DNA of 64,000 nucleotides from Frigoriglobus tundricola (GTDB taxonomy: Bacteria > Planctomycetota > Planctomycetia > Gemmatales > Gemmataceae). Of the stretch, positions 3,122 to 40,580 are shown in pieces. Where the stretch lies: positions 4,650,001-4,714,000 of the forward strand of contig NZ_CP053452.2 of assembly GCF_013128195.2 (NCBI RefSeq). The letters are read 5' to 3'. The notes below the pieces were generated by a model. That model was not told the origin of the DNA and made no database searches. It worked only from the letters and a program-made list of their open reading frames with translations. Every line of letters begins with the position of its first letter. Positions within the stretch are counted from its first letter, which is position 1. Both the position numbers and the translations under genes were made by a program.

Positions 3122-3142
3122 GATGACTCCAGATTAAGAGCT

Positions 3143-3246: not shown

Positions 3247-3258
3247 AAATCGTGTGTA

Positions 3259-3570
3259 TTACTTCGTGACTTTGCCGAGGATCTCGCTCTCGCGAACGAT
3301 CTTGTATTCCTTGCCGTTCACTTCGACGTCCGAGCCGCTGTACTTGCCGAACAGGACCGTGTCGCCGACCTTCACGGCCAGCGCCAGGCGGGTGCCCTTG
3401 TCGTTCAGCTTGCCGGGGCCGACGGCGACCACCGTGCCCTGCTGGGGCTTCTGCTTGGCGGTGTCCGGCAGCAGGATGCCGCCCGACGTCTTCTCTTCCG
3501 CTTCGAGCGGTTGCAGAACGACGCGGTCGTCCAGCGGCTTCAGGGTCAGTTGCTTGTCAGCTTTCGCCAT
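3259..3570 (-). CDS. groES: 10 kDa co-chaperonin GroES
   Basis: The 103-residue protein matches GroES: N-terminal [23 protein letters not shown], which includes the mobile loop that docks on GroEL, followed by the conserved GKL and [14 protein letters not shown] segments of the dome. It forms a heptameric lid on GroEL. The gene lies between two groEL genes, which is unusual because most bacteria have groES first; here groEL2 precedes it by 134 bases. The start at 3570 is the natural ATG, with a few residues (MAKADKQLT) before the fold. Confidence 0.95.
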
Positions 3571-3593
3571 TGTTATGCTCCGGTGAATCGGAA

Positions 3594-3695
3594 CCCAGGG
3601 CAGCGCCCTGGGCCGGGGAATCGCACCCCTGGGGGTGCGGGATGTTTTCAGCCCGGCGGGCCGGGAACTCTCGGCCCGGAGCGCGGCTCCGGGCC
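3594..3695. repeat. Group of GC-rich hairpins between groEL2 and groES
   Basis: Three perfect hairpins follow each other: CCCAGGGC/GCCCTGGG at 3594-3612 (loop 3), GCACCCC/GGGGTGC at 3623-3638 (loop 2), and an arm of 10 (GGCCCGGAGC) at 3673-3695 (loop 3). They fill most of the intercistronic spacer. They could stabilise or process the mRNA between cistrons. No U-tract follows, so simple termination is unlikely. Confidence 0.65.
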
Positions 3696-3704
3696 GGCGT
3701 CGGA

Positions 3705-25044: not shown

Positions 25045-25100
25045 CGTTTCGGGTATGATGGGAAGGGCGGACCGACCCGAAAACCACGCGGAGCCGGTTG

Positions 25101-26246
25101 GTGGGACAGCCAGCGCAGCAAGCGGGCGGGTCGGCCGGTGACCAGTTCTACGTCACGCACTGCGCCACCGCCGACAGCGTGCTGAACAACCCCGGGTACA
25201 CGGTGCGTGCGGCGTCGTCGGGCGACGCCGACGCGCTCGACGCGGCGTTCCGCTACCCGCCCTACGAACTGCCCATCGATATGTGGCGCGATCCGCCGCC
25301 ACCGGCCGCCGCGCCGCGCCGGCTGGCCCGCACCCGGTACCCCGACGGCGGCGTGTGGGCCGTCCACTCGGCGTACCTGGCAAAAGACTCGGTCGACCGC
25401 GACCGCTCGTACTTCTCCCACCTGCTGCTGCTGGACGCCGCCGAACCGGCCGCCGTGCTGCGCTCGTGGGGGGCCGACGGGTGGGTGACGAACTACCCTC
25501 CCGGCGCGGAGAAGCAACTCGACCGCGCCGACCTGCCGACCGGGCCACTCGTCAGCGACGCCGCACTGACCGCGTTTCTCGGCGAGCAACCGCCCGGTCC
25601 GACCGAACTGAGCCTGACCGTCTGCCCGCCGCGGTTGCGCACGTCCGGGGCCGAGCGGTCCGACCTGTTTGCCCGCTTTTTGCAAGCCCTGCTCCTGCTC
25701 GCCGCGGAAGAAGAACCGCAGCGCCGCCGGCTGTACGTCCATGCGGAGCCGGGCGTCGTGGCGCTGCTCCTCTACGGCGCGGTCCGGTTGCTCCCGCCGG
25801 CCGTTACAGACGACCTCACCTTCTCCACCTTCGAGCCGTACCACCGGAACATCCGCGATTACAGACTGGCGGAAGTGGTCGGCACGTACATCGGCCCGCC
25901 GGAGACCGGCAAGGGGCTCGACGCCGACCTGGGCACCACCCGCGGCATCGCGCTGGACACGATCGTGCCGGCGCGGTCGTCGCGCGAGCTGCGTGCGCCG
26001 CTGGCCGAGTCGCTGCCGGCCGGGATCGACGAGCTGATCGAACTCGCCGCACGCGGCGAGTGGGGACTCCTTCCGGCGGTCCGGCACGCGGTCGGGGCGG
26101 ACCCGTCCGGCCTTCCTCGCGTGGCGGTGGGCGCTGGGTCGCGCGCGGGGGCTGGCCCGCGTGGACGCCGGCACGGCGGGCATCGACGACCTGCTCGCGC
26201 TCCAGTCCGACCCGATCGGAGCGGACGAACTGAAGGGGCGCGTTGA
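25101..26246 (+). CDS. GAP1-N2-like protein, N-terminal part (frame broken)
   Basis: This frame encodes about 380 residues starting at a GTG (TTG at 25098 is an alternative). The first 330 look like the GAP1-N2 (GTPase-associated protein 1) domain of predicted bacterial conflict systems: DQFYVTHCATADSV, NPGYTVRAASSG, and WAVHSAYLAKDSVDRDRSYFSHLLLL, which parallels the family's Y-S-C start and Y-G-D-GR-NYFAH region. After about 26095 the frame becomes Arg-rich nonsense, while the next frame continues the protein (RPAFLAWRWALGRARGLARVDAG). One extra G in GGGG at 26093-26096 would explain this. It should be read with the next entry as one protein of about 950 residues. The family call rests on memory of the domain pattern. 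Confidence 0.55.
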   Translation: MGQPAQQAGGSAGDQFYVTHCATADSVLNNPGYTVRAASSGDADALDAAFRYPPYELPIDMWRDPPPPAAAPRRLARTRYPDGGVWAVHSAYLAKDSVDRDRSYFSHLLLLDAAEPAAVLRSWGADGWVTNYPPGAEKQLDRADLPTGPLVSDAALTAFLGEQPPGPTELSLTVCPPRLRTSGAERSDLFARFLQALLLLAAEEEPQRRRLYVHAEPGVVALLLYGAVRLLPPAVTDDLTFSTFEPYHRNIRDYRLAEVVGTYIGPPETGKGLDADLGTTRGIALDTIVPARSSRELRAPLAESLPAGIDELIELAARGEWGLLPAVRHAVGADPSGLPRVAVGAGSRAGAGPRGRRHGGHRRPARAPVRPDRSGRTEGAR

Positions 26247-27960
26247 CCAGGTGTGGCCGGTCGTGAAGGCCGCGGCCCTCGACCCGCGCCGCAGCGACGT
26301 GCGGACCGCGTTCCGCTCCCTCCTCGGCGACCCGGAGCGGGTGAAGCAGTTTTGGGACGAGGGGTTCGAAGCGGTCCTGCGCGAGGACTTCCGCACCTGG
26401 GATTCGCGGTGGGCGGTGGTGCGCGAGGCCGCCGGGCCGGCGGAAGCCCGCAAGTACCTCAACCGGTTCATCGGCAACGAAAAGGCCGAGGGGAAGCTGG
26501 CCAAACTGCCGACCGACGTGCGCGCCCGGCTGCGGGCCGCGTGCGGCGACGTGGGCCTGCCCCCGCCGCGCCCGCTGCTCGTGCCGATCGGGCTGGGCGA
26601 ACTCGAACCGCTCCTGGGCGCGCGGCCGGAGTGGGCGGGGTACACCGCGTTCGTCCTGATGGCGAGCGAGTCGTTGAACGCGATGGCGCACGTGCCCGCG
26701 CCGGCCCGTCAGCAGATGCGCAAACGGGCGCGCGAGTTCCTCCTCGGCGCCCCCGCTCCCGCGCTGGCCGCCTACGTCAAGCACGCCCGACCGCACCTGG
26801 ACGCCGACCCGAAGTTCCTCACCGGGCTGTTCACCCCGTACTCCGCGGGCGCGGCCCAGCTCATGGACCGGCTGCTCGCGGACGACACCCTGGAGCCCGA
26901 CGACTGGATCAAACTGTGTACGGTCGTCGGGTTGACCCAGGACGATTGGGGCGCGTTTTTGCTGGAACGGGACCGGCTCGCCCGCCTGCTGGTCGGGCTG
27001 GGCGGCGGCGGTGCCGGCAGGGAAGTGTGGAAGGGCTATCTGGACGCGCTCACCCCGGCCCTGATCTCGCCGGACCTGATCGAAGTGGCCGAGGGGGACG
27101 ACGCCGAGGTGATCCACGCCTGGGAGCGCGGCGTCCACACGCACCTGCGGGCCGCGGCCGAGCGGCTCACCGCGGCCGGGGTGAAGCTGGCCCCCGCGCT
27201 ACCGGACGGCGGGGTCGCCCGGCTGTTCGCCGCGAACAACCTGCTCAAGTGGGTGGACACGCCCGCTCTCGCCGAGCGCGACGGGGCCGACGAGGTGGCG
27301 CACGCGTGTGCGGCGTTCGAAGTGCCCCCCCTCGCCCTCGTGCGGGTGGCGTACACGAAGGGGGGGTACGACCAGCTCGACCTGCCGCACGAGAACGCAC
27401 GCCTCGAACCGCTCGTCGCCCTGTTCCGCGCCGCGTTCCCGGTGGACGCTCAGTACCAGACGGCCCAGACGGCCGTGACCCACTGGCTCGCGCTCTCCGG
27501 TTCCTGCCCGGCCCGGTGGCGTGCCGCGTTCCAGGCGCATTTCGTGCTGGCGTGCGTGCCCGAGTTGTATTACCCGAACCTGCTCGCGGAGGAGCGGCGG
27601 CAGCCGTTCGAGCCGCGGGCCGAGGCCGCCATCCGTCAGGCCATCGCCAGACCGGTGAAAAAGGCCGGACCGAAGCCCGCGGGAACCAAGCCGTTCGAGA
27701 TCGAGGAGGAGGGCGACGGCGAACGGCCGGCCCCCGGCTCGGCGGGCACGACCCGCTATTCGAGAAGCACGCGCTCGACCGGCTCAACGGCCCGGCGGGC
27801 AAAGCGGGGTGACTGGCTGGGGCTGACCATTATAATCGGCGTCTTGATTGTGCTCATCGCCGGCGGAGCGATTGCCTACGTCAGATTTGCGAGCAAGAAC
27901 GCCCCGCAACCGGAAACGACGCCCGAACAGCCGAAGGCGAGTCCGCCGGGCAAGAAGTAG
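26161..27960 (+). CDS. GAP1-like protein, C-terminal part with a membrane helix
   Basis: This open frame of 599 residues has only a GTG in a coding-looking context as its start. It continues the upstream frame after a one-base shift near 26095 and has no Shine-Dalgarno of its own. The sequence is helical and rich in Ala, Leu and Arg, without a motif I can name; it may correspond to the GAP1 middle and C-terminal regions. Near the end are a Ser/Thr/Arg linker, one membrane helix (LGLTIIIGVLIVLIAGGAIAYVRF) and a short Pro/Lys tail. The long part therefore probably faces the cytosol. It is followed after 77 bases by another membrane-anchored protein. Confidence 0.6.
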   Translation: MDAGTAGIDDLLALQSDPIGADELKGRVDQVWPVVKAAALDPRRSDVRTAFRSLLGDPERVKQFWDEGFEAVLREDFRTWDSRWAVVREAAGPAEARKYLNRFIGNEKAEGKLAKLPTDVRARLRAACGDVGLPPPRPLLVPIGLGELEPLLGARPEWAGYTAFVLMASESLNAMAHVPAPARQQMRKRAREFLLGAPAPALAAYVKHARPHLDADPKFLTGLFTPYSAGAAQLMDRLLADDTLEPDDWIKLCTVVGLTQDDWGAFLLERDRLARLLVGLGGGGAGREVWKGYLDALTPALISPDLIEVAEGDDAEVIHAWERGVHTHLRAAAERLTAAGVKLAPALPDGGVARLFAANNLLKWVDTPALAERDGADEVAHACAAFEVPPLALVRVAYTKGGYDQLDLPHENARLEPLVALFRAAFPVDAQYQTAQTAVTHWLALSGSCPARWRAAFQAHFVLACVPELYYPNLLAEERRQPFEPRAEAAIRQAIARPVKKAGPKPAGTKPFEIEEEGDGERPAPGSAGTTRYSRSTRSTGSTARRAKRGDWLGLTIIIGVLIVLIAGGAIAYVRFASKNAPQPETTPEQPKASPPGKK

Positions 27961-28037
27961 TCCGGACGGGGCGAAAGAAAACACCGGGATTCCGCCATGT
28001 ACTACGAGCCGGGGAGCTTCTTTGACGGAGGCCGATC

Positions 28038-29501
28038 ATGAAGGCGCGCGGGGGCGGGCTACTGCTGTTGCTGGCGGTCCCGTTCGGGCTGTACGTCGGG
28101 TGGCAGGTGAACGGGGTGGCCCGCACCGACATGATCGCCTCCGCCCCGCCGGCCGACCGCGGCGCGACGAAGGATCAGCTCGAAAAAGCCCACGCCAGGA
28201 CCGCCGCCTGGGCCGGTGAGGTGCGGAAGGCCGTAGCCGTCACGTGGCAGTTCCGGCCCGCCGGCCCCGAAGACCTGACGCCGGATGCCGCCGCCTCCGG
28301 CGTGGTGCGGGCGTCCGCCCTCCGGTCCGCCGATCTCAACGACCTCGACCTGTTCCTCTCCGGCGTCGAGCGGCCGACGTTCGCGGGCAAGTTGAAGGCG
28401 TCCTACGACCGGTGGGTCGTGGACGCGAACCAGGCCCGTCAGGACGAGCGGGAGGTGCGGGCGTGGCTCGCCCGGCCGCCGGCCGTCGCCTCAACAGCCG
28501 ACGCGAACAAGGCCCTGGACGCCGCCACGAAGCTCATCAACCAGTATTCCGAACGGTCGCGCTTCACGGACCGCGCGAAGACCGCTTCGTGGCGTGTTCA
28601 ATCGCGGCTGGTCGTCGTCAAGGCGCTGGCGGCCCAGGCCGACACCCAGTACCGTACGGCGGTGGCCGTGAAACTGCCGCTGAAAGCGGGGAACAATGAG
28701 ATCGAGACCGCCGTCGAAACGCTGACCGGGGTGCGAACGCTCATCGACGAGCTGCGCGCGGCCGAGAAGCAGGCCGACGAGGAGCGGGTGCCCCTGAACG
28801 AAAAGCTCCGCGGCGAAATCGACGCGCAGGGCGCGGTGGCCGACCAGTGCCGGGCCAGTCTGGAGTTGCTCAAGTTGTTCGCCCGCCCCGACCTGTTCAC
28901 CAACCCCGACGGTGCGGCGGCGTGGCTCAAGCAGGTGGGCGACCAGTACGCCGACACCAAGGACGAGAAAACCAAGGCGCTGCTCCGCGAAAAGGTGCAG
29001 GAGTTTTGTGACGCGTTCGTCCCCGAAAAGGTTCGCCTGGACGACGCGGTCCTCCTCAAGGGCGAACGGGTGTCCCGTGCCGAAGTGAAGGTCAAGTTCC
29101 CGCGCGGGGATGGGACAAGTGAGATCGTGGAGCTTTCCGCTGCCGCGGACGGGCTGAACGAGTTCAACGTGACCGAGCGCCACCCCGGCGACAGCACGTT
29201 CATCAAGTACAACGGTGAACAGTACCCCAAGCACTTGCAACCGACCGATCTGAGCCGGGCCGCGGTCGTTTTCATGAGCGAGCGAAACAAAGTCGGGCTC
29301 GGGACGCGCGGACCGAAGTGGACGGTCCAATCGGTGACGCAGTTGAAGAATGCGTGCGAGGCCAAGATGGAACTGGTAGACAAGATGGACCGGTTGAAGG
29401 CTCCCAAACCGGCGGACGACGAGTTGAAGATCCGGACGCGGTTGCAGAGCCTGTTGGACGGCCTGAAGGCCGCCCCGGCCCTGGTGGGCAGCGGATCATA
29501 G
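28038..29501 (+). CDS. Membrane-anchored coiled-coil protein of the vWA/PP2C cluster
   Basis: I do not recognise this 487-residue protein. It starts with one hydrophobic helix (GGGLLLLLAVPFGLYVGWQV), either an anchor or an uncleaved signal. The rest is mostly charged and helical (DQLEKAHARTAAWAGEVRKA, LRAAEKQADEERVPLNEKLRGEIDAQ), suggesting coiled coils outside the membrane, with a short beta-rich stretch (AEVKVKFPRGDGTSEIVELSAA) near residue 350. It is 77 bases after the GAP1-like gene and 30 bases before the first scaffold gene, so it is almost certainly co-expressed. A role as a stalk or link between the membrane partners is a guess. Confidence 0.6.
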   Translation: MKARGGGLLLLLAVPFGLYVGWQVNGVARTDMIASAPPADRGATKDQLEKAHARTAAWAGEVRKAVAVTWQFRPAGPEDLTPDAAASGVVRASALRSADLNDLDLFLSGVERPTFAGKLKASYDRWVVDANQARQDEREVRAWLARPPAVASTADANKALDAATKLINQYSERSRFTDRAKTASWRVQSRLVVVKALAAQADTQYRTAVAVKLPLKAGNNEIETAVETLTGVRTLIDELRAAEKQADEERVPLNEKLRGEIDAQGAVADQCRASLELLKLFARPDLFTNPDGAAAWLKQVGDQYADTKDEKTKALLREKVQEFCDAFVPEKVRLDDAVLLKGERVSRAEVKVKFPRGDGTSEIVELSAAADGLNEFNVTERHPGDSTFIKYNGEQYPKHLQPTDLSRAAVVFMSERNKVGLGTRGPKWTVQSVTQLKNACEAKMELVDKMDRLKAPKPADDELKIRTRLQSLLDGLKAAPALVGSGS

Positions 29502-29531
29502 TACGGCCCGAAGACCCGGCTGGGGCGGTCA

Positions 29532-31697
29532 ATGAATTTGCTCGTGGCGTGGAAGAAGGTGCTGCTGTTCGGCGCGTTCGGGGCAGTCGGCTGTCTGGCC
29601 GGCTGGCTCGTCGGCGAACCGTATTTGTTCGTCGCCGGGGAGGTGGCGGCACGGGCCGGCGCGAAGGGAGCACCGTCGCTCATCTCCCGTCCGACCTCGG
29701 CCGATCCGCCGCCCCTGACACGTGACTTTCTCGACCGCCTGAAAGCGGTCAACCCGCCCCCCCCGCCGCGTGACTTTCTCGACCGCCTGAAAGCGGCCGG
29801 CGCGAAGAGTGGCGACGTGCAAATTTCCCTCATCTGGTACGACACTAACGATCTCGACTTGCACTGCGTGGACCCGGACGGGTTCGAGATCTTTTGGAAG
29901 CCGGACCACCGGCGATCCCGCTCCGGAGGCGAACTCGACGTAGACCGCAACGCCGGCTGTCAAGACCCCATCGCCGAGCCGGTCGAGAACATCTACTGGG
30001 CCAAAGGCACCGCACCGAGTGGCACCTACAGCGTGTACCTCAATTTTTACCAGCAGTGCCCTCGCGGACCGACGGAATCAGATTACAAGATCAACGTCTT
30101 GCACGGCGGCGAGCGCCAGGAATTCAAGGGGACGATTCGGAAAGACCGAACGGATACTGGGCCGAAGAGGCTCATCTACAAGTTCCAGTTGGAGCCGAAA
30201 ATCGAGGTGTTCGCGCCCGACACATTTCAGTTGGCCCCTGGCACGAGCCTCCGGGTGCCGGTCGCCGTCCGGCGCGAATTCTTCCAGGGCAAAGTCGAAG
30301 TGAGAGCCGAGCGGCTGCCGGCGTCCGTGACCGCCGAACCGCTTGTCCTTCAGCCGAACCAGAGCGAGGGCGAACTAGTATTCAAAGCGACCGACGCGAC
30401 CATACCCGGCGAGACCCGGATCAAGATCGTGGCGGCCGGCGAGGGGGTGAGCTACTCCGTCGATCCCACACTTGTCGTTCCGAGATCGCAGTTCTCACTC
30501 TGGGCGGTGATTTCGACCGGCGTTTGGACGGCCCTGCTGGCGCTCGGGCTCTGCCTCGCGCTCCTGGCCGGGCAGAACCGGTATCTGGGCAAGGCCCCGT
30601 TCGCGTCGGGCCGCGTGCCACTCGCACTCGTTGTCTTGGGAGCGCTTGCGGCCGGGTTTGTATCCGGTAGTGTCGGACAGGTGCTGTATTTCGTGTTCCT
30701 CGCCATCGGCATCGCGAAGCTCGGGTTCCTCGTCGGCTGGGTTCTGCTGGGCGGCCTACTCGGCCGCGGAGTGAGCGCCTTCATTCCGAACCTGGACGGC
30801 ACGAAGGCCGCGCTCGCGGGGCTGGGCGGCGGGTTGCTCGGCGCGGTCGCGTTCTGGGCCCTGTCGGCCGCGGCGGAATGGATCGGCCGGTTCGGCGGCG
30901 CCGCCTTGCTCGGCTTCTGCATCGGTCTCATGGTGGCGGTGGTCGAGGCCGCGTTCCGCCGGGCGTGGCTCGAGGTGCGGTTCAGCGAGCGCGAGATCAT
31001 CACCGTGAACCTCGGCCCCGAACCGGTGAAGGTCGGTGGCGACGCCCGGGCCTCTACCGTGTGGGCACGCGGGGCTGCGGCGATCGCCCTCCGTTACTGG
31101 ATTCGCGACGGGAAAGTCTATTGTGAGGACGTCCCCGCGAAGCGCGAGGCCGCCGTAACCAACGGCGACACCCGCACCGCGGGCGGGGTGACCGTCGTGG
31201 TGCGAACCGGCGGCTCGCCGGCACCCGTGCGCGACCGTCCGCCGCCCGGACCAGCTCCCCAGCCCCCGCCGATCCCCGGACCGCCACCCGCCGCGCCCGC
31301 GCCACGGGCGACGGCGGCGCTACCCGGCCCGGTGCCGGCGAGACCGGCGGAGCCGGAGTACGACGACCTGCCGATGCCGATGGGGCCGCCGGCCCTGACT
31401 CGGCCGGCGACGCCGTCCATTCTGGACCTCGACGATTCACCTGTTGCGACGGCGCGGCCCGCGGTCCCGGCCCCGGCCCCGAAGCCGGTTCCGCCCGCCC
31501 GCTCCGCTCCGCCCCCGCCGAAGCCGCCGGTTCCCACGGCCGCAAAGCCGGTGGCCCCGCCCGCGCCGAAGCCGCCGGGACCGGCCCCGGCGACCGCACC
31601 GAAACCCGGTACTCCAGACTCCTGCCCCACGTGCGGGCGCAAAGCACCGGACCAATCCGGCGAACGGTACTGTATGGTGTGCGACCGGACGTTCTGA
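29532..31697 (+). CDS. Membrane scaffold with DUF2135-like ectodomain and C-terminal zinc ribbon
   Basis: 721 residues. After an N-terminal membrane helix (8-35) comes a YfaP/DUF2135-like domain (about 95-220: ISLIWYDTNDLDLHCVDPDG, GGELDVDRNAG, GTYSVYLNFY), an Ig-like beta domain (to about 315), several membrane helices (about 325-475), then AAFRRAWLEVRF. The C-terminal part has a small beta domain (480-560, with VNLGPEPVKVGGDA and NGD, FHA-like in appearance), a Pro/Ala linker, and a zinc ribbon CPTCGRK...YCMVCDRTF in the last 27 residues. The same membrane-to-ribbon architecture recurs in the protein at 37415, but with a vWA ectodomain. Probably a receptor or scaffold joining envelope signals to cytosolic partners. 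The FHA-like reading is tentative. Confidence 0.7.
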   Translation: MNLLVAWKKVLLFGAFGAVGCLAGWLVGEPYLFVAGEVAARAGAKGAPSLISRPTSADPPPLTRDFLDRLKAVNPPPPPRDFLDRLKAAGAKSGDVQISLIWYDTNDLDLHCVDPDGFEIFWKPDHRRSRSGGELDVDRNAGCQDPIAEPVENIYWAKGTAPSGTYSVYLNFYQQCPRGPTESDYKINVLHGGERQEFKGTIRKDRTDTGPKRLIYKFQLEPKIEVFAPDTFQLAPGTSLRVPVAVRREFFQGKVEVRAERLPASVTAEPLVLQPNQSEGELVFKATDATIPGETRIKIVAAGEGVSYSVDPTLVVPRSQFSLWAVISTGVWTALLALGLCLALLAGQNRYLGKAPFASGRVPLALVVLGALAAGFVSGSVGQVLYFVFLAIGIAKLGFLVGWVLLGGLLGRGVSAFIPNLDGTKAALAGLGGGLLGAVAFWALSAAAEWIGRFGGAALLGFCIGLMVAVVEAAFRRAWLEVRFSEREIITVNLGPEPVKVGGDARASTVWARGAAAIALRYWIRDGKVYCEDVPAKREAAVTNGDTRTAGGVTVVVRTGGSPAPVRDRPPPGPAPQPPPIPGPPPAAPAPRATAALPGPVPARPAEPEYDDLPMPMGPPALTRPATPSILDLDDSPVATARPAVPAPAPKPVPPARSAPPPPKPPVPTAAKPVAPPAPKPPGPAPATAPKPGTPDSCPTCGRKAPDQSGERYCMVCDRTF
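29721..29796. repeat. 28-base direct repeat inside the scaffold gene
   Basis: 29721-29748 and 29769-29796 are identical and encode the repeated peptide RDFLDRLKA on either side of a Pro-rich stretch. The period is 48 bases. It lies in the linker between the first membrane helix and the DUF2135-like domain. Confidence 0.85.
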
Positions 31698-31813
31698 AAA
31701 GTCTCGTCAGCGGAGCGCCCCGAACACCAGTACGATGAAGACCATCCGCGGGCGCCGAACCGGTTCCCGGCGCCGCCAGACCGAACGACCCCGAACAAGT
31801 CTCGGAGTGTATC

Positions 31814-32710
31814 ATGCCCTACGACATGCAGATCGACCGCGCGAACCCCGGCTGTATCGTGTTCCTGGTGGACCTGTCCAACTCGATGCTCGACGGCATC
31901 GCCGGGACGCAGCGGGCGAAGATGGACACCGTGTCCACGGCCATCAACCGCTTCTTCCAGGAACTGATCACGAGCTGCGAGAAGGGCGAAGAGAAGCCGC
32001 GGAACTACTTCGACGTGGGCCTGATCGGGTACACCACCGACTCCAACGGCGTCGCCATCGTGAGGCCGCTGTTCCAAACGGCTCTGACCGGCCGCGACCT
32101 CGTGTCCATTAGCGAGCTGTACGATCACCCGCTGGAGATCGAGCAGCGGCGGAAGAAGGAGTTCGTGGACGACGGCGCCGGCGGCCTCACGGAAGTCGAG
32201 AAGCAGATCGCGTTCCCGGTGTGGTTCCGCTCGCCGGCGCCGACCGAGATGTTCGGCACGCCGATGTGTACCGCCCTCGGGTACTGCAAGCAGGTGGTGC
32301 AGGCGTGGATCGATGCGCACCCGAACAGCTTCCCGCCGATGGTCATCAACCTGTCCGACGGCGAGTCCACCGACGGGATCCCGGTGCCGTTCGCCGAGGA
32401 CCTCAAGGGGCTCGCCACCGCCGACGGGAACGTCCTCCTGTTCAACTGCCACCTCTCGGGCCGCGACGCGCAGCCGGTGTTCCTGCCGGCGACGGACAGC
32501 ATGTTGCCGGACGAGTACGCCCGCGACCTGTTCGGCATGTCCAGCAACCTGCCGGACAAGCTGCGGCACATGGCCGAGGTAAAGGGGATCGCGGCCCCGA
32601 CCGGCTGCAAGGCGATGGCGTTCAACGCGGACGCGGTCAGCCTGCTCAAGTTGCTCAACGTCGGCACGCAGGTGGTCGCCGCCGCCACGCTGCCGCCGCA
32701 CCTGCGGTAA
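31814..32710 (+). CDS. TerY-like von Willebrand A domain protein
   Basis: The 298-residue protein is a single vWA domain with a full metal-ion-dependent adhesion site: D20-L-S-N-S24 (FLVDLSNSM), Thr149 in EMFGTPM, and Asp182 in INLSDGES. It has no signal peptide, so it is cytosolic. The DLSNSM core and flanking PGCIVFL match TerY of the tellurium-resistance/TerY-P systems, where a vWA protein works with a PP2C phosphatase and a protein kinase. A PP2C gene follows after 116 bases, but no kinase is nearby. It likely binds a phosphoprotein or scaffold partner in a metal-dependent way. Confidence 0.85.
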   Translation: MPYDMQIDRANPGCIVFLVDLSNSMLDGIAGTQRAKMDTVSTAINRFFQELITSCEKGEEKPRNYFDVGLIGYTTDSNGVAIVRPLFQTALTGRDLVSISELYDHPLEIEQRRKKEFVDDGAGGLTEVEKQIAFPVWFRSPAPTEMFGTPMCTALGYCKQVVQAWIDAHPNSFPPMVINLSDGESTDGIPVPFAEDLKGLATADGNVLLFNCHLSGRDAQPVFLPATDSMLPDEYARDLFGMSSNLPDKLRHMAEVKGIAAPTGCKAMAFNADAVSLLKLLNVGTQVVAAATLPPHLR

Positions 32711-32718
32711 GGGAAGAA

Positions 32719-32812
32719 CCTAACCCCCCGGCCCCCTTCCCTCTTAGGGAAGGGGGAGAAAAGCCCCGAGTCTGAGCCCCTCTCCCCTCGGGGGAGGGGT
32801 TGGGGAGGGGTC
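32719..32812. repeat. C-rich/G-rich hairpin element between vWA and PP2C genes
   Basis: It contains CCCCCTTCCCT/AGGGAAGGGGG (32732-32756, loop 3) and CTCCCC/GGGGAG (32782-32796, loop 3), enclosed by CTAACCCC and GGGGTTGGGG blocks. Similar in composition to the element at 24542-24671. It occupies nearly the whole intergenic gap and could modulate read-through from the vWA gene to the PP2C gene. Confidence 0.7.
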
Positions 32813-32826
32813 TTGCTGAGAGACCG

Positions 32827-34692
32827 ATGGACCCGACCCCCGCCGAGCCGCCGCCGGGCTGCCTCGTGCTGCTCCTCCGCCTCTCGGCCGGGATGACCGC
32901 GGACGTGGTCACCGGGCGCGGCGAGACCGTGGCCGTTGCGGCCGTGCGCCACCTGGCCGACGAGTTGCTCGACGGGCTGGTGAACACCCTCGCGGCCGGG
33001 TACGCGATCGGCGCTGTGGACGTGGCCGTCCTCGGTTACCGCACCGGCCCGGACGGGGCGCCGCAAGTGCTCTCGCTCCTGCCCGACGGCGATCCGAAGC
33101 CGCGGCTCGTGCCGCTGACCCATGTGGTCGGGATGCCGGCCGCCCCGCGCGACGCCGAAGGGCAGCCGAAGAAGTGGACGGTGCCGCCGGCCTGCGGGGG
33201 CGACCCGTGCCCGACCGCCGCACTGGCGGCGGCGTATCAAATGGTGTCGGTGTGGCTCACGGGGCGGTTCGCGGCCCGGCCGCCGGTCGTGATCCACTGT
33301 ACCGACACCGCCGGACTCGACGCCGCGTACTTCCGCGTCGCGCGGTCGCTCGCTTTGCTCGCGACCGGTCACGGACCGGTGCGCCTGCTCCATTACGTGT
33401 TCGAAGCGGGCGCCGAACCGGTGCCCCTCGGAACATGGGCCGCGGCGCCCGAAGGCGAACCGTGGGCCGAACTGTTCCGCACTTCGGGCGACCTGGCCGA
33501 AAACCCGGACGCCGGTAAGCCCCGCCGCCGCGCGATCGCGGTCAACGACTGGGACATCGGTGACCCGTGGGACGCGCTGTTCGCTTACGAGTGGCGCGGG
33601 GACACGGTCGCGTGGACCGGGAGCGGCGGCTTCGGCTCCAGCCGCGCACTGTGGGTCGAAAAGATGGGCAACACCCCCGAGCAGTGGGAGGACGCCTACG
33701 CCGTGGACGCACCCGGCGGAGCCGCCGCCATCGCTGATGGGGCCAGCAGCGGCATCTATTGCAGCATCTGGGCGCAGCAACTGAGCCAGCGGTTCCTGGC
33801 CGACCGGCCCGACGCGCGGGAACCGATCGCGCTGAACAAATGGGTGAACGGGCTGCGAGCGGAATGGCGCGCCGCGATCAATTACAATAACCTGAACTGG
33901 TCGAAGCAGGCCAAGGTCGATCAGGTCGGTGCGGCGGCCACCCTGCTCACGTTGGAAATCGGCCCGGAGGCCGACGGCGAGCGCCCGTGGCGGGCCGCCG
34001 CGGTCGGCGACGCCAGCCTGTTCTGGGTGCGCGGCGGGCGGCTGCTGGGCACGTTCCCGGTCGCCGCGGCCGACCAGTTCGGCTCCGCGCCGCTGCTCGT
34101 CCGATCGAACCCCGGCTTCCGCACGCTCGCGGTCGCCGCGGCGGGGACGTGCCGCCCCGGCGACCGGTTCGTGCTGGCGACCGACGCGGTCGCGGCGCGG
34201 CTGCTCAAGAGTTCCGCCGGCCCCGGACCGGAATGGGACCGGTTCGAGACGATGACCGCGGACGACTGGCGCGCCGAACTGGACACGCTCCGTCGGTCCA
34301 AAGACATGGTGAACGACGACTGCACGCTGGTCGTTCTGTGTGTCGCCGGTGCCGAGACGAGCGGGGGACGTGAGCCCCCCGAGGCGATCGGCGAGGACAA
34401 CGAGCTCGAAGACGAAACGCCGCTCGCGAACGAACACGCCTCCCCCGAGGCGACCGGCGCAGAAAGCGAACTCGAAGAACCGCTGGCGAGCGATGAGCCA
34501 CCGGCGGACGAGGACGCATCGCCGGTTCTGCTCCAAGCACCCGCCGAAGGCGAGGCCCGCGAGGAAGCGGACGTTCTCCCGTCGGCCGAGGAACTGGTCG
34601 AACAGCCCGAACCCCATGTCGAGCCCCCGCCGGCGGACGCTCCGCCGGCAGCCAGGGATGGTTTCCCGGAATCGACGGACCCGCGTGTCTGA
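32827..34692 (+). CDS. Degenerate vWA - PP2C-family phosphatase fusion
   Basis: 621 residues. The N-terminal 200 residues align in layout with the TerY-like protein next door (GCLVLLLRLSAGM against PGCIVFLVDLSNSM) but lack the MIDAS aspartate and serines, so it is probably a metal-free vWA. A PP2C domain follows (about 250-515) with metal aspartates in WEDAYAVDA, IADGASSG (D313), VGDASLFW (D405), LATDAVA (D463) and NDDCTLVV (D507/508). The last 105 residues are an acidic Glu/Pro/Asp tail. It should dephosphorylate Ser/Thr proteins in the cytosol. Its ATG at 32827 starts right after the hairpin element; the next gene begins 16 bases after its stop, so they are co-transcribed. Confidence 0.85.
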   Translation: MDPTPAEPPPGCLVLLLRLSAGMTADVVTGRGETVAVAAVRHLADELLDGLVNTLAAGYAIGAVDVAVLGYRTGPDGAPQVLSLLPDGDPKPRLVPLTHVVGMPAAPRDAEGQPKKWTVPPACGGDPCPTAALAAAYQMVSVWLTGRFAARPPVVIHCTDTAGLDAAYFRVARSLALLATGHGPVRLLHYVFEAGAEPVPLGTWAAAPEGEPWAELFRTSGDLAENPDAGKPRRRAIAVNDWDIGDPWDALFAYEWRGDTVAWTGSGGFGSSRALWVEKMGNTPEQWEDAYAVDAPGGAAAIADGASSGIYCSIWAQQLSQRFLADRPDAREPIALNKWVNGLRAEWRAAINYNNLNWSKQAKVDQVGAAATLLTLEIGPEADGERPWRAAAVGDASLFWVRGGRLLGTFPVAAADQFGSAPLLVRSNPGFRTLAVAAAGTCRPGDRFVLATDAVAARLLKSSAGPGPEWDRFETMTADDWRAELDTLRRSKDMVNDDCTLVVLCVAGAETSGGREPPEAIGEDNELEDETPLANEHASPEATGAESELEEPLASDEPPADEDASPVLLQAPAEGEAREEADVLPSAEELVEQPEPHVEPPPADAPPAARDGFPESTDPRV

Positions 34693-34708
34693 CCTCCGCG
34701 AGGAACTC

Positions 34709-37201
34709 ATGTCCCGGTCTACATTCCCCTCGCGACCTGTCGCCCGCAAAGCCGGGCTTCACGGCCGCTCCAACTCTCTATTGCGTGTTTCCGCGCTCGC
34801 GGCCGTGCTGGGCGCGTTCACGCTCCACGGCCGGCACGCCGCCGCGCAGGACGCGGCCGAAGTGGTCGAGGCCGCGAAGAAGAACCCGACCGCGATTCAA
34901 AAGGCACTCGCGGCCGGCAAGGACGCGGGGGGCAAGGACAACCCGAGCCTGAAGCGGCTCCGCGTGGACGGGCTCGAAACGGCCGGGGACAAGGTGAAGG
35001 TGACCGGCGTGTACATCGACACCGGCGCGAAGCCGAACGGGGACGCGGAATCGCAGGTCGGCGACGCGGCAAAGGACCTCATCCTCAAGCTGCTCGGCGG
35101 AGGCAAAAAGGCGCTGTTCAGTTGGGACGGCGTCGCGACGGTGGGCGCGGTGGACGACAAGGACAAGCCCAAGGGCGAACCCACGCCGCACGCCGCGCTC
35201 CAGACGGTCGCGAACGCCGCTGGGTCCGCGGGCACGCGCAACGACCCGCGCCCCGCGGACCGCGTGTACCTGAACGGCAGCGAATTCGGCCCCGGTGGCG
35301 ATCTCGTTCTGACAGGCTACCGTGCGGACGACGCGGCAATTGAAGCGTGGCTCACCGGGGACGGGGTGAAGGCCATTGCCTCCAACCCGGCCGTTCGGAA
35401 GAAGGACGGCAAACCGCAGGTCACGTTCGCCGTCAAGGAAGTGAAGGCGTGGCCGCTGGCCGCGTCCGAGATTCAGAAGCTGCTGGCCGGCTCGAAGGAC
35501 GTCGCGACGCAGCGACTGCGGGCGGACCGGGCGCACTTCGTTTACGACGGCGCCGAGGCCAAGTTTGTTGTGACCGGAGCGCGGCTCGGTGAGGACCGGC
35601 TGGAAGAAGATCCGATCCTGGACGCAATTCGACGGCTGTGGCCGGACGTTCTCGGCGGCACCAAGCCGGTGCGCATCGGGCTCGCGTTCCCGGCCGGGGT
35701 GGACGACCCGGCCAAAGACTTCCGCGCGGCCGTCGCGGCCCGGCCCGCGCTCGACGGCGTGCGGGTGGACCCCGGCGCGGTGTTCGGCCCGGCCGGTGAG
35801 TTCATGCCCGCCGGCCTCCAGCCCGGCCTCACGGCCGCCCAGAAGAAAGACCTGAACGACGCCTTTCAGGCCGTCCTTAAGACCCGGATCGCCCGCGGCG
35901 ACGCCGCCGCGGACCGGTACAAACTCCTGACCGTCAGCCCGGTCTCGCCCGACCGCATGAAAGTCGTTCCGGTCAACGCGTTGAAAGACGAACTGCGGAA
36001 GTGGGCGGTGCGAACCCGCGACGACGTCCGGCTGAGCCGCCTGTACTTCAGCGACGATCCGGCGGCGCTGGCCCAGAAGCACTACGCGGTCGCCAAAGAC
36101 GGCGGCGGGCTGGTTCTCGTTTATCAGGTCGCGACCCCTGACGATATCAAGGCCGTTGCGACCGAATTCAACCGCCTCGTCCTGAAATACTTCCCCCAGG
36201 GCATCGCCGAAGTCAAACTCGAGGGGGCGCCGACCCCGCCCGCCGAGACCGGGAGCAAGGAACCGCTCCTCCCGGGCCTCACGGCCGAGGTGCGCAAGAT
36301 CATGGCCGGCGATCAGAAGCGCTGGTACGGGGTGCTGATCGAGCGCGGCTCCTTTGACGCGGACGACCGGTACACGCTATCCGGAGCGGTCGATACCGAG
36401 GCGCAAAACGAAGAACTGGCGGCGCTCCTCAAGCGGCTGGCGGGCGAGCCGAAGTGGAAAGACACGTACTTCAAATCGCCCGGCGGGGCCGACCTGCCGC
36501 CGCAGGCGCCGAAGCTCGCGGTCATCCCGATGAGCCAGATGCTCGACCGCGTGCAGCGCGTGACGCCGGCGTACCCGGCCCTCGACGGCGTACAGATCGT
36601 CGCCGTCAAGTACGACGACACGGCGGCCCTCGTCTTCGAGGCGCGCACGGTGGGGACGGTCGCCCCGGGGGCGGTGGCCAAACTCACCGACCTCCTGATC
36701 AAGCACCCGCTGTACGCCCGGCGCGTGATCCGGCCGGAGCAGGGGGCGCCGAAGGTGCGGATCAAGTCGATCGGCGGGCCGAAGGCCGCCGACGACCAGG
36801 TCGCGAACTTCAGCCTCGCCACCGGCGCCAAGCTGCTGGCCAAGGCCGACGCGAGCGCGGCCGACAAGGCGGCGGCGAAGGCGTGGGTGGACGCGGGCCT
36901 CTTGAACTACTCGAACGAGTCGGCGGTGTGGTTCCTGAGCGCCCAGTACAACTTCCTGTACGGCGACGAGGACAAAACTCGGCGCCTCGAACTGGTCCGC
37001 CGCGACCTGTACCGCGTGATCGACCTCGAAGGCCCGCTGGCCTTCAACGGCCCGGCCCAGCGCCGCCGCCGCTACGAGGCCGCGAAGGACTTCCAGGGCG
37101 CCGCCCGCAACGAACTGGAAGCGCTCTGCCTGGAGTGCTACCGCGACGTCAAGGACGGCGCACAGCCCATCACTCTGGCGGAACCGAAAAAGGACAAGTG
37201 A
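34709..37201 (+). CDS. Large secreted repeat protein of the vWA/PP2C cluster
   Basis: I do not recognise this 830-residue protein as a named family. It has an N-terminal basic region and a signal-like helix (LLRVSALAAVLGAFTLHGRHAAAQ). The body has at least five similar beta units ending in a strand-Gly motif, for example LKRLRVDGLETAGDKVKVTG, RVYLNGSEFGPGGDLVLTG, VRVDPGAVFGPAGEFMPAG and VLIERGSFDADDRYTLSG, separated by helical parts rather like BON-type repeats. The C-terminus is helical (YNFLYGDEDKTRRLELVRRDLYRV). It begins 16 bases after the PP2C gene, so it is in the same transcript, and is probably periplasmic or external. The ATG at 34709 follows GAGGAA. Confidence 0.7.
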   Translation: MSRSTFPSRPVARKAGLHGRSNSLLRVSALAAVLGAFTLHGRHAAAQDAAEVVEAAKKNPTAIQKALAAGKDAGGKDNPSLKRLRVDGLETAGDKVKVTGVYIDTGAKPNGDAESQVGDAAKDLILKLLGGGKKALFSWDGVATVGAVDDKDKPKGEPTPHAALQTVANAAGSAGTRNDPRPADRVYLNGSEFGPGGDLVLTGYRADDAAIEAWLTGDGVKAIASNPAVRKKDGKPQVTFAVKEVKAWPLAASEIQKLLAGSKDVATQRLRADRAHFVYDGAEAKFVVTGARLGEDRLEEDPILDAIRRLWPDVLGGTKPVRIGLAFPAGVDDPAKDFRAAVAARPALDGVRVDPGAVFGPAGEFMPAGLQPGLTAAQKKDLNDAFQAVLKTRIARGDAAADRYKLLTVSPVSPDRMKVVPVNALKDELRKWAVRTRDDVRLSRLYFSDDPAALAQKHYAVAKDGGGLVLVYQVATPDDIKAVATEFNRLVLKYFPQGIAEVKLEGAPTPPAETGSKEPLLPGLTAEVRKIMAGDQKRWYGVLIERGSFDADDRYTLSGAVDTEAQNEELAALLKRLAGEPKWKDTYFKSPGGADLPPQAPKLAVIPMSQMLDRVQRVTPAYPALDGVQIVAVKYDDTAALVFEARTVGTVAPGAVAKLTDLLIKHPLYARRVIRPEQGAPKVRIKSIGGPKAADDQVANFSLATGAKLLAKADASAADKAAAKAWVDAGLLNYSNESAVWFLSAQYNFLYGDEDKTRRLELVRRDLYRVIDLEGPLAFNGPAQRRRRYEAAKDFQGAARNELEALCLECYRDVKDGAQPITLAEPKKDK

Positions 37202-37348
37202 CGCGATACCGGGGCGCCCCCTGTCTCGACGCTCGACGCAGCGGCCAGTCGGCGAGTACGGCGCGAGAGAGTGTTTTGAAGACCTGGCTCTGTTCGTCTT
37301 CTTTGTGTCCTTTGTGCCTCTGTGGTCAAACTGTCTTTCTTGTCATTT

Positions 37349-37380
37349 GTGAGCCCCACGGCTCACCCTTTTTGATTTTT
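37349..37380 (+). terminator. Intrinsic terminator before the vWA scaffold gene
   Basis: A 7-base stem GTGAGCC/GGCTCAC with loop CCAC (37349-37366) is followed by CC and then the T-rich run TTTTTGATTTTT. This is the clearest Rho-independent terminator in the window. It lies 148 bases after the repeat-protein stop and 35 bases before the next start, so the last scaffold gene is either transcribed separately or attenuated. Confidence 0.7.
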
Positions 37381-37414
37381 GCCGCGCTCGGACGTCCCTT
37401 TCGGAGACCGCTCG

Positions 37415-39758
37415 ATGCCCGCGCCGAAGCTCCTCGCCGGTTTGCCCAAGCCGGCGCTGTTCGGACTCTATGGTGCCGTCGGCGGGTTGATCGGCGCACT
37501 GGTCTTCGGCGAACTCGTGTGGTTCGTGCTCCGCCCGCCGCCGCCGAAGCCGCCCGAACCGCCCCCGCCCCCGGAACCGCGGCTGGCGGTCAGCGCGTCC
37601 GGCGCGCTTCAGATCTACCAGGGCGGGACCAACAAGGTGTTCGTGCAGCTCGCCCGCGACGCGTTTGACGGCCCCGTAACGGTGCGCGTCGAGGGGCTGC
37701 CGGCGGGCGTCACCGCGGCCGATGTGACGGTCCCGAACGAGAAGTTCGACGCGAACGGTCAGGCCGAGGCCGAGGTGGAACTGCGGGCCGCGTTCAGCGC
37801 CGACACCCGCGCACCGAGTCGCCTGGAAGTGGTCGCTTCGACCAGCCCCGGTGGCAAGCTGCTGAACGTGAACGCGCCGCTCACGCTCACCACGCTCGCG
37901 TCGCCGATGCCGCAGGCCGACATCGTGTTCGTACTCGATGTGACCGGTAGCATGCAAAATCAAATCGACGGGCTGAAGAACGGCATCGGCACGTTCGCCC
38001 GCGATCTGACCCGCGCGAAGGTGGACGCGCGGTTCGGGTGCGTCGCGTTCCGCGACCTGTTCGTGCCCGAACCGAATGGGTTCCCGCAGATGCAGGTGCT
38101 GAAGTTCAAAGACGAGACGTTCACCTCCGACGCGACCGCGTTCCGCGACGAGATCGCGAAGCAGCGCGCTTCGGGCGGCGGCGACACCCCCGAAACGAGT
38201 TTCGAGGCCATTTCCGAAGCGGCCGGATTGAAGGACTGGCGCAAGTCGGCGAGCCGCGTGCTGGTCCTCATCACCGACGCTCCGCCGAAGATTTACGCCA
38301 CCCCGTCCCTCGGACAGTCCGAAAAAGAGACCATCGAATCGCTCCGCGCCAACAAGATCGATTTCCTTCACCTGGTGGTCAACGACAAAGAACTGCCCAT
38401 CTACCGCAGGGTGCAACAGGGCGCGCTCGGCACGACCTCCTCGAAGGGGGAAGAGGACAAGGGGAAGGAGTTCAACTTGAACCGGACCGCGGGCGACGCG
38501 CGGACGTTCACGAGCGTGCTCCTGCCCGAAATGACGAAGGCCATCGTGGCCGCGGCCGAGGCGAAGCGCCCGGACACCAGGCCCGAACTGGCCGCGCGCC
38601 CACCGGTCGTGGAACTGCCGAAGGCCGTGGTGAAGGGCGTGCAGTCGAGCGACAGTTACGACGCCGGCTCGTCCGGGCAGTTGGTCCTCGCGGTCGGCGT
38701 GTGGACCGGCTCGATTGCGGCGCTGGTGTGCCTGTTCCTGCTCGGCGGTCAGCACCACTACCTCCGCGGCACGCTGCCGTCCGTCGGGCGGGCGCTGGCC
38801 GGGTTGGTCGGCGGCCTGCTGGTCGGCCTCATCGGCGGTGCGGCCGGGCAGGGCTTGTTCCTCCTCGCCCCGGACATTCCGCTGCTGGCCGCGATCTTCC
38901 GGGTGATGGGGTGGACGATCCTCGGTTCGCTGGCCGGCGCGGGGCTGTCGCTGTTCGTCCCGAACCTGAAGCTCGTGTACGGTCTGGCGGGCGGCGCCGT
39001 GGGCGGCGCGGTCGGGGCGCTGGGCTACATTGCGGTGGCGTCTGTTGCGAGCGCGCTGCTCGGGCGGCTCGCGGGCGGCCTGGTACTCGGCCTGTTCATC
39101 GGGCTCATGGTGGCGGTCGTGGAAGCCGCCTTCCGCCGGGCGTGGCTCGAGGTGCGGTACGGGCCGCGCGAGGTAGTTACGGTGAACCTCGGTGCCGAGC
39201 CGGTGAAGGTGGGCGGCGACGCCCGCGTGTGTACTGTCTGGGCGCGCGGAGCGCCCGGGGTCGCCCTTCGGTACTTCATCCGTAACGGCCAGGTGATTTG
39301 CACCGACGTGCCGGCGCGTTCGGAATCGGCGGTCACCGACGGCGACACCCGCGCGGCCGGGAACGTGACCGTCGTCGTCCGCACGGGCAGCGGGAGCCCC
39401 GCGCCCGTGCCGGACCGGCGCCCTGCCCCGCCACCAGCCCCGCGGGCCAAACCCGCGCCCGCTCCTCAACCGCGGGACCTTGAAGACGACGGGCTACCGC
39501 TACCCGCGTCGGACCGTCCGGCGCCTCCCACAGCGCCCGCGCCGGCCGCACGTCCGGTACCGGCCCGCCGCGCCACCCCGCCCGCCGCTCCCGACGGCGC
39601 CGCGCCCTGCCGCGCCGCCGCGTCCTGCGAACCCTCCGGCGCCCGCGCCGGCGGTCAAACCGAGCGCCAAAGACCCGGACGCGTGCCCGACCTGCGGGCG
39701 CAAGAACCCCGGACGCCCCGGAACGCGCTACTGCGTGGTGTGCGACCACACGTACTGA
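37415..39758 (+). CDS. Membrane scaffold with vWA ectodomain and C-terminal zinc ribbon (frameshift in linker)
   Basis: About 780 residues. Order: N-terminal membrane helix (14-38), Pro-rich spacer, Ig-like beta domain (57-165), vWA domain (168-375; MIDAS D175-V-T-G-S179, GGGDTPE, D288 in LITDAPP), a membrane bundle (422-572), then a beta domain (580-655, VNLGAEPVKVGGDA), Pro/Ala linker and zinc ribbon CPTCGRK...YCVVCDHTY. From the last helix on it is a close paralogue, in DNA as well, of the gene at 29532. The original frame stays open past the ribbon to 39889, but the ribbon itself is read in the frame one base later, so a one-base shift lies between about 39541 and 39610 in the linker. Probably a receptor that senses a ligand through the vWA. 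Confidence 0.75.
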
Positions 39759-39892: not shown

Positions 39893-40195
39893 ATGGGCAA
39901 GATCAAAGTTACCGTCCGGGGCGGACGCCTCGAAGTCGATGAACCGATCAACCTGCCCGACGGGACCGAACTGGAAATCCCGCTGCCGGACGACGGGGAA
40001 GGGCCGATGCCAGCCGACGAGATCGTTCGGGTGCTGGCGGCGATGGACCGGATCGAACCTCTCGACCTGACCGATACGGAACGGGCCGCTTGGGTGGCCG
40101 AGCGGGCGGACCGGAAGGCACGAGAGATGGCCGCGTTCGCCGAACAAAGCGAGGAGTTCCGGAGGATGTGGGATGACCCGATTCCTCCTCGATAG
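39893..40195 (+). CDS. Putative antitoxin of a VapBC-like pair
   Basis: The 100-residue protein starts MGKIKVTVRGGRLEVDEPINLPDGTELEIPL, a beta-rich segment like short DNA-binding antitoxin domains of the AbrB/SpoVT-like or related type. A charged helical C-terminus follows (DLTDTERAAWVAERADRKAREMAAF). It overlaps the start of the PIN toxin gene by 23 bases, so the two are coupled. GGAGGG precedes the ATG. Family naming is uncertain. Confidence 0.6.
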   Translation: MGKIKVTVRGGRLEVDEPINLPDGTELEIPLPDDGEGPMPADEIVRVLAAMDRIEPLDLTDTERAAWVAERADRKAREMAAFAEQSEEFRRMWDDPIPPR

Positions 40196-40580
40196 CGGCA
40201 TCGCGACCGACTACATCGATCGGCGCAATGGAGTGTACGACCGGGCGCAGACAGAGACGCTGGCCGGAAATCGGGTCGGCACCGCCGTTCCGGTTCTGGC
40301 CGAACTCGCCGCGGGGATCGAACGGAGCCGCAGTCGCGACCGGAACATGCGGGCTCTCCAGCTCGCCCTGGGCGCATGGAAGCTCTGGCCGTTTGACGAC
40401 GCCACGGCCTTCGAGTACGGCCGGCTTCACGCCGAACTTTTGCGGATCGGCCGTCCGATGCAGGTAATCGACATCATGATCGCCGCTGTCGCTCTGAAGC
40501 TGGGTAACACCGTCGTCGTGACCAAAGACAGCGACCTCGCTGCCGTACCCGGACTGACAGTTGAGAACTGGGCCGAATAA
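40173..40580 (+). CDS. vapC: VapC-like PIN-domain ribonuclease toxin
   Basis: The 135-residue protein has the acidic PIN residues: Asp in FLLDSGIATDYI, Glu in VPVLAELAAGIE, Asp in QVIDIMIAA and Asp in VVTKDSDLAAVPGL. PIN toxins of this size cut tRNA or rRNA in a Mg-dependent manner and are blocked by their antitoxin. The asparagine usual after the first Asp-Ser/Thr (DTN) is replaced (DSGIATDYI), still acceptable for the family. It overlaps the antitoxin upstream and the archaemetzincin frame downstream. Confidence 0.85.
   Translation: MTRFLLDSGIATDYIDRRNGVYDRAQTETLAGNRVGTAVPVLAELAAGIERSRSRDRNMRALQLALGAWKLWPFDDATAFEYGRLHAELLRIGRPMQVIDIMIAAVALKLGNTVVVTKDSDLAAVPGLTVENWAE

Follow-up and report, generated by a model that had tools for sequence, protein, structure and literature searches.

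A GAP1-N2 and TerY-P gene cluster in Frigoriglobus tundricola: the larger part of a divided membrane signalling system?

Background

Does a gene cluster that encodes a GTPase-associated protein, a protein phosphatase and several vWA domains, and has neither a GTPase nor a kinase, represent a novel type of system, or is it part of a known type whose genes have come to lie apart? This question is raised by seven plus-strand genes at 25.1-39.76 kb of a 64,000-nucleotide stretch (the window; C1:4650001-4714000, contig NZ_CP053452.2) of the 9.86-Mb genome of the planctomycete Frigoriglobus tundricola. In order, they encode GTPase-associated protein 1 (GAP1), an anchored coiled-coil protein (CC), a membrane protein (MS1), a stand-alone TerY-type vWA protein, a PP2C phosphatase, an exported repeat protein (REP) and a paralogue of MS1 (MS2), and with the chosen starts they are separated by 77, 30, 116, 116, 16 and 213 bases. 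A sequence-only reading of the window had proposed these seven genes as an uncharacterised envelope module of planctomycetes, and their place, common strand and spacing (gaps of 16-213 bases) are borne out. This genome is labelled G000 and its relatives G004-G088.

GAP1 and the DO-GTPases were defined by Kaur et al. (eLife 2020; PMC7159879), where GAP1-N2/DO-GTPase systems were predicted from sequence; the third theme in the excerpts of that paper combines a kinase and a PP2C with a stand-alone vWA protein, and is given as "restricted to actinobacteria". The same excerpts mention planctomycete GAP1-N2 systems and describe neither the form found in the window nor its membrane and periplasmic part. 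Definitions of TerY-P and its anti-phage activity are found in excerpts of PMC11090510 and PMC7699616, and those of PMC11237479 and PMC8195603 contain no description of the window locus. At the level of titles and abstracts, no planctomycete version was found in the open-access papers searched; at that level, and in the excerpts of PMC7159879, we found no experiments on any GAP1-N2/DO-GTPase system.

Results

A GTPase and kinase pair elsewhere on the chromosome

No kinase or GTPase match was obtained among the window proteins scanned, some small frames lying outside the scan. The earlier statement that both are missing thus holds for the window but not for the genome, as a DO-GTPase and a kinase are encoded side by side at C1:4035229-4040915, ~634 kb from the cluster. 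The former is the sole DO-GTPase2 match of the genome (C1:4036636; PF19993, E=1.1e-7, 34 bits) and by eye displays an N-terminal zinc ribbon and hydrophobic segments. The kinase follows directly (967 amino acids, C1:4038015-4040915), bears a long C-terminal region, is 54.5-73.3% identical to the kinases of relatives (median 65.5%, n=16 genomes) and matches the PADLOC model STK_OB only over positions 2-293 of 562, which correspond to the kinase half. Its C-terminal half is without a family assignment. The P-loop, FDYSGE, KFD, HGDLQHDN and DYDG motifs and the acidic motifs of PP2C, which we take to be the catalytic signatures of the GTPase, kinase and phosphatase, are present in the proteins of G000; by these motifs the DO-GTPase and kinase appear catalytically intact and active.

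In relatives these genes share a single cluster, with the order DO-GTPase, kinase, GAP1, CC, MS1, TerY vWA, PP2C, REP, MS2. In G000, on the other hand, the DO-GTPase is not beside GAP1, nor is the kinase in the TerY/PP2C locus. Because the GTPase and kinase head the cluster in relatives and are kept as a pair in G000 itself, their apparent lack in the window is a rearrangement of a known type of system. With a probability of roughly 0.55, we read the window as holding most of a membrane signalling system of nine genes that joins GAP1-N2/DO-GTPase and TerY-P components, the GTPase/kinase part of which resides at the distant site.

Cluster organization in relatives

Clusters were tabulated from matches with E<=1e-8, with weaker matches that overlap a better one by >30% removed. 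Absences of REP, kinase and GTPase rest on the best candidates scored per genome, those of GTPase and GAP1 were rechecked in 8 of the 95 genomes with all candidates scored, and CC and MS2 were sought within the cluster stretches. G016 and G023 each carry the complete order on a single contig (CC being a partial match in G023), and it recurs in G022 and G024 with ~4 kb between the GTPase and the kinase, occupied by two other genes in G022. G015 has the cluster on one contig with no detected MS1; in G019 the GTPase through vWA genes run up to a contig end and PP2C-REP-MS2-MS2 lie on another contig; and G026 has the kinase through PP2C genes on one contig. Beyond the genus, G006 displays GTPase-kinase-GAP1-MS1-vWA-PP2C with a 145-amino-acid gene carrying a CC-like anchor between GAP1 and MS1 and no REP or MS2 match, and G004 displays GTPase-kinase-GAP1-MS1-vWA-PP2C-REP with CC only as a weak match. 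In six further genomes (G013, G014, G017, G018, G020 and G088) the clusters are cut by contig ends. The sequence-only reading had named joint recurrence of the genes in several genomes as support, and such clusters, rather than homologues scattered singly, are what the relatives contain.

The cluster is divided at different points: between kinase and GAP1 in G000, between GAP1 and CC in the complete chromosome of G011, and, less certainly given metagenome contigs of 54 and 48 kb, between MS1 and vWA in G025. In G009, G010 and G012 the kinase is at one place and MS1-vWA-PP2C at another, with no REP among the best 9 of 18, 21 and 27 candidates, respectively, nor in the cluster stretches. G021 retains PP2C-REP and pieces of GAP1, with no kinase, vWA or GTPase match (all candidates scored for the GTPase); G014, which is 65% complete, again yielded no GAP1 with all candidates scored; and in G034 the matches to REP and to the GTPase fall on different contigs. 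MS2 occurs in one or two copies in 11 other genomes of the genus, and was not seen in the cluster stretches of G006, G011, G021 and G025. In G013 two MS2 copies stand in front of the GTPase (L073:1328-6348), a permuted order.

Among the matches listed for the 95 family genomes searched, REP and the GTPase are each present in at least 19, and occur together in 18 of the 20 genomes with either (p=3e-17). Both are found in 15 of 19 genomes within the genus (p=0.004), and in 3 of 76 outside it, where one more has the GTPase alone (p=5.7e-5); these p-values ignore the kinship of the genomes. The kinase is present in at least 18 of the 19 genus genomes (in pieces in G026) and the TerY vWA in 18 (partial at a contig end in G018). 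Across the phylum, the C-terminal region of MS1/MS2 was recovered in at least 3 of 392 genomes (G000 and two weak partial matches) with the best 7 candidates per genome. Five Streptomyces loci (L102-L106) all contain vWA and PP2C and four contain the kinase, with no GAP1 match to the references used.

A second, fused GAP1/TerY-P locus

G000 encodes two further GAP1-N2 proteins, at C1:2.25 Mb and 8.96 Mb. In the former the GAP1-N2 domain is fused to a TerY vWA in one 697-amino-acid protein (C1:2253280-2255373, corresponding to L006:17281-19374, minus strand), and downstream come a PP2C match, a kinase whose β-propeller-like region is weakly matched, and a ricin-B-lectin gene. By its gene content this appears to be another GAP1/TerY-P system of G000, and a compact one: its GAP1-N2 is 65% identical to that of the window cluster and all three triad parts recur, but GAP1 and TerY are fused, and the stretch read has no match to MS1/MS2, CC or REP and no adjacent GTPase. 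Fused GAP1::TerY frames are also present in G011 (684 amino acids) and G025 (688 amino acids), and in G019 GAP1 and vWA share one frame at a contig edge. These fusions tie GAP1 independently to the TerY-P triad, as a Rosetta-stone link. Around the 8.96-Mb GAP1-N2 gene, no match to the other window genes lies within the 37 kb read.

Component proteins and their predicted structure

The coordinates of the cluster are given in Table 1. The GAP1 identification stands: GAP1-N2 (25140-25529; PF20013, E=8e-9, 36.1 bits) and GAP1-M (~25653-25835; PF20014, E=1.8e-6, 28.5 bits) both exceed the Pfam cut-off of 24 bits, and a C-terminal membrane segment is visible by eye at ~27810-27880. The gene is not, however, one open frame in this assembly, being broken between ~26103 and 26160, and profile A4 matches it as two overlapping pieces (model positions 2-338 and 336-911). 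Fourteen GAP1 proteins extracted from other genomes of the genus or family are single frames of 901-964 amino acids (one truncated at a contig end), the outliers having 1093 (G018) and 1338 (G004). Likewise, MS2 is the vWA-bearing membrane scaffold that had been proposed (VWA_4, E=3.8e-10), but a frame change at 39369-~39560, in a proline-rich linker, is needed before the zinc ribbon and the stop codon at 39758 can be read. Both breaks lie in very G+C-rich stretches, in which assembly error is common, and the frames downstream are still open and conserved; an error and a true mutation are both compatible with the data. MS1 of G009 is also frame-broken (L067:9918-11996; 161 + 514 amino acids), where the similar G010 has one 693-amino-acid frame.

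Table 1. Features of the cluster, in window coordinates
Feature	Position	Strand	Basis and remarks
GAP1 (GTPase-associated protein 1)	25098..27960	+	Pfam; frame change ~26103-26160
CC, 487 amino acids	28038..29501	+	N-terminal membrane anchor, then helical/coiled-coil region, both by eye
MS1, membrane protein	29532..31697	+	AlphaFold2 model, alignment A2
Stand-alone TerY-type vWA	31814..32710	+	PADLOC TerY, alignment A1
PP2C with preceding degenerate vWA	32827..34692	+	Pfam, PADLOC; PP2C domain ~33688-34245
REP, exported repeat protein	34709..37201	+	AlphaFold2 model; signal peptide by eye
Terminator-like hairpin followed by a T-rich tail, in the REP-MS2 gap	37349..37366	+	Consensus scan only
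MS2, MS1 paralogue	37415..39758	+	vWA ectodomain ~37922-38290; frame change before zinc ribbon

The triad assignments of the sequence-only reading were confirmed. The stand-alone vWA matches PADLOC TerY (E=5.4e-77) with an intact metal ion-dependent adhesion site (MIDAS) motif, DxSxS, and the phosphatase matches Pfam PP2C_2 (E=1.9e-5) and PADLOC PP2C (E=4.9e-25). The MIDAS motif is absent from the vWA fused in front of PP2C and kept in that of MS2. CC has no convincing family match in Pfam, NCBIfam or PADLOC, and orthologues occupy the same position in relatives, with a median identity of 44% (n=13). The NCBIfam scan produced nothing beyond weak kinase-like matches that fall below the cut-off, and none of the nine proteins contains a recognisable effector domain in the Pfam, PADLOC and NCBIfam family scans.

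MS1 and MS2 are indeed a pair of zinc-ribbon membrane proteins: their C-terminal regions are ~52% identical, which makes them paralogues over that stretch, and both end in a CxxC...CxxC zinc ribbon kept in relatives (alignment A2). The AlphaFold2 model of MS1 (mean pLDDT 77.8, the ectodomain mostly ~90 or higher, the linker of low confidence) contains a first transmembrane helix, two β-sandwiches (95-210 and 221-318), five transmembrane helices (323-475), a β domain (478-560), a proline-rich linker and the zinc ribbon (698-717). MS2 carries the same membrane and cytosolic region, with a vWA as its ectodomain. Assuming the N-terminus of MS1 to be inside, its six helices would place the β domain and ribbon on the cytosolic side. 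The second sandwich resembles the immunoglobulin (Ig)-like domain of a Micromonospora sialidase (Z 12.3, root-mean-square deviation 1.9 Å over 93 residues); the whole-chain structure search was dominated by antibody and Ig rows and mainly probed residues 93-318. For a fibronectin type III component no Pfam FN3 match was obtained; residues 223-317 are Ig-like. The proposed DUF2135-like nature of MS1 had no support in Pfam (no match at E<=0.5). An FHA identity of the MS1/MS2 β domain, plausible by eye, gained no support from sequence, with no Pfam match and an hhalign probability of 0.6-4.2% when compared with 12 FHA domains encoded in G000.

The REP model (pLDDT 82.1, pTM 0.68) displays about seven α-β-β-α-β units, counted by eye, and a helical, TPR-like C-terminus. 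A structure search of the PDB with REP gave no strong match (best Z 7.1, within the tool's uninformative range), and a PDB sequence search with REP and with the MS C-terminal region gave nothing useful. Likeness to the type III secretion ring proteins PrgH, PrgK and a Shigella ring protein (Z 5-6) is one of shape only.

A gradient of conservation

Identities were taken from best local alignments to the G000 copy, for proteins of at least 200 amino acids and with n of 8-17 out of 18 possible genomes. The genus-wide medians are 91.6% for the vWA (n=17), 65.5% for the kinase (16), 60.3% for the GTPase (8), 59.4% for PP2C (17), 56.0% for MS2 (11), 55.8% for MS1 (14), 51.2% for the second piece of GAP1 (13), 44.0% for CC (13) and 41.4% for REP (11). 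That the TerY vWA is ~92% identical while its cluster neighbours are at 41-66% sets this one small protein apart in constraint. Along MS1 (n=6-8, without L100 and L101 from other genera and rows covering <70% of the region) the β domain is 74%, the five-helix part 70%, the first helix and the ribbon each 66%, the first ectodomain 64%, the Ig-like ectodomain 48% and the linker 45% identical. A nearly invariant vWA hub combined with more variable outer parts would fit, though it does not prove, a sensor with a constant inner relay.

Gene neighborhood

Directly downstream of MS2 (39893-41562) are a 100-amino-acid gene with no family match, a PIN-domain gene (E=6.9e-15) and a peptidase M54 (archaemetzincin-like) gene (E=5.2e-10); the first two resemble a toxin-antitoxin pair of the VapBC type. 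On the upstream side, ~1.7 kb from the cluster (20996-23404, minus strand), is a gene for an 802-amino-acid protein with weak AAA_22/AAA_16 and TPR_12 matches, which looks like a STAND-type ATPase. PADLOC gave no match for the 10 neighbouring window genes tested, including the PIN/M54 region and the STAND-like gene. Further off, a DnaJ-like gene lies near two divergent GroEL/Cpn60-type genes (148-5435, minus strand), and a DNA/RNA non-specific endonuclease gene (59443-60285, plus strand; E=1.1e-49) is preceded by a leucine-rich-repeat gene (57831-59060). Terminator-like sites number 13 in the scan as against 10.2 (standard deviation 3.3) in shuffles, and the hairpin of Table 1 is no evidence alone.

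Discussion

Relation to known systems

With the third theme of Kaur et al., as excerpted from PMC7159879, the system has in common GAP1-N2 and GAP1-M with a C-terminal membrane segment, a DO-GTPase, a kinase that looks active and has an extended C-terminal region, a PP2C phosphatase and a stand-alone vWA protein. The claim that no described system has this composition was therefore too strong. The system differs from that theme in its occurrence in Gemmataceae instead of actinobacteria, in having no Pfam FNIII match, in the addition of the paired six-helix MS1/MS2 with their β domain and zinc ribbon, CC and REP, and in the separation of GTPase and kinase from GAP1 in G000. A membrane-bound vWA protein also features in the same excerpts, there belonging to the tubulin themes. 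All three members of the TerY-P triad (TerY vWA, PP2C and Ser/Thr kinase) are matched by PADLOC models; unlike the typical triad, the PP2C bears a degenerate vWA, the kinase is not adjacent and matches STK_OB in part, and the whole is linked to GAP1 and a DO-GTPase. What is new, then, is the combination of GAP1-N2/DO-GTPase and TerY-P components in Gemmataceae, the trans-envelope part, the GAP1::TerY fusions and the differing break points. The proposal of a new planctomycete envelope module survives as an envelope-associated unit with TerY-P and GAP1 kin, but not as one devoid of kinase and GTPase.

A possible mechanism

The system is likely to be a trans-envelope switch operating through phosphorylation and GTP. 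MS1 and MS2 would cross the inner membrane with the Ig-like and vWA domains outside and the β domain and zinc ribbon inside; CC and the exported REP would form a periplasmic part that signals the state of the envelope, presumably its damage or stress. On the inner side the zinc ribbons and the TerY vWA may assemble the kinase and the PP2C, which would set opposite phosphorylation states, and GAP1 and the membrane-anchored DO-GTPase might together provide a threshold switch acting on the assembled complex. As MS1, vWA, PP2C and kinase persist without GTPase and GAP1 in three genomes, MS1 seems to be a core member of the triad, with the GTPase part added as a gate. More tentatively, and with distinctly less confidence than in the nine-gene unit itself, we propose that variable periplasmic sensors (the MS1/MS2 ectodomains, CC and REP) control a cytosolic, TerY-centred kinase/PP2C hub gated by the DO-GTPase and GAP1.

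Several points weigh against this picture. With all candidates scored, G009, G010 and G012 yielded neither GTPase nor GAP1, although kinase, MS1, vWA and PP2C are all kept, so these three relatives can do without the GTPase part; one ancestral loss probably explains their state, given how similar the flanking regions appear by eye. G006, G011 and G025 have otherwise similar clusters with no MS2 or no REP beside them, and GAP1 and MS2 are frame-broken in the present assembly. Within MS1, the first ectodomain (64%) hardly differs in conservation from the zinc ribbon (66%), and an FHA-like, phosphothreonine-reading role of the β domain has no sequence support. Contact among the parts, and joint action of the distant pair with the window genes, are what we infer from the clusters of relatives, and envelope stress as the stimulus is a guess, against which the nearby PIN-domain pair and STAND-like ATPase gene also count.

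Alternative explanations

One could suppose that the seven genes act alone in G000 as a module without kinase and GTPase, as the lack of such matches among the window proteins scanned and the loss of the shared cluster context might suggest. We consider this very improbable, given that both partners are intact and side by side in the same genome and that the complete chromosome of G011 is also split, at another break point. Decay of the system in this strain, towards the reduced state of G009, G010 and G012, is unlikely too, if less so: two frame breaks within one locus, the separation from GTPase and kinase and the absence of GTPase and GAP1 in three relatives speak for it, whereas the G+C-rich setting of both breaks, the open and conserved frames downstream and the intact GTPase and kinase speak for a working system.

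A more serious alternative, which we regard as possible though well short of even odds, is an anti-phage or general conflict system, in which the GTPase/GAP1 threshold and the TerY-P triad trigger a membrane-level effector upon infection. Excerpts of PMC11090510 and PMC7699616 report protection against phage by TerY-P modules whose kinase is fused to an OB fold, and those of PMC7159879 predict a conflict role for GAP1-N2 systems. PADLOC assigns the vWA, PP2C and kinase domain to TerY-P, the outer parts are the fastest-evolving, and the PIN-domain pair and STAND-like ATPase gene are close by. Against this, an effector would have to be sought outside the domains recognised in the nine proteins, and the kinase (at least 18 of 19 genus genomes) and the vWA (18 of 19, ~92% identical) behave more like core genes than like patchy, fast-changing defence genes. 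We prefer envelope stress over phage defence by a small margin because nearly all genomes of the genus have the kinase and vWA, no effector domain came to light and the ten neighbouring genes tested have no PADLOC match.

Conclusions

Together with the reduced gene sets of G009, G010 and G012, the differing split points hint at which parts of the nine-gene system form sub-units. As a natural combination of GAP1-N2 and TerY-P components with a clear membrane and periplasmic side, kept across a genus that includes named, isolate-like members, the Gemmataceae clusters offer a way to ask what such switches sense. If the proposed trans-envelope relay is correct, it would provide both the TerY-P triad and GAP1-N2 systems with a defined input side, and the near-invariant TerY vWA would be the hub.

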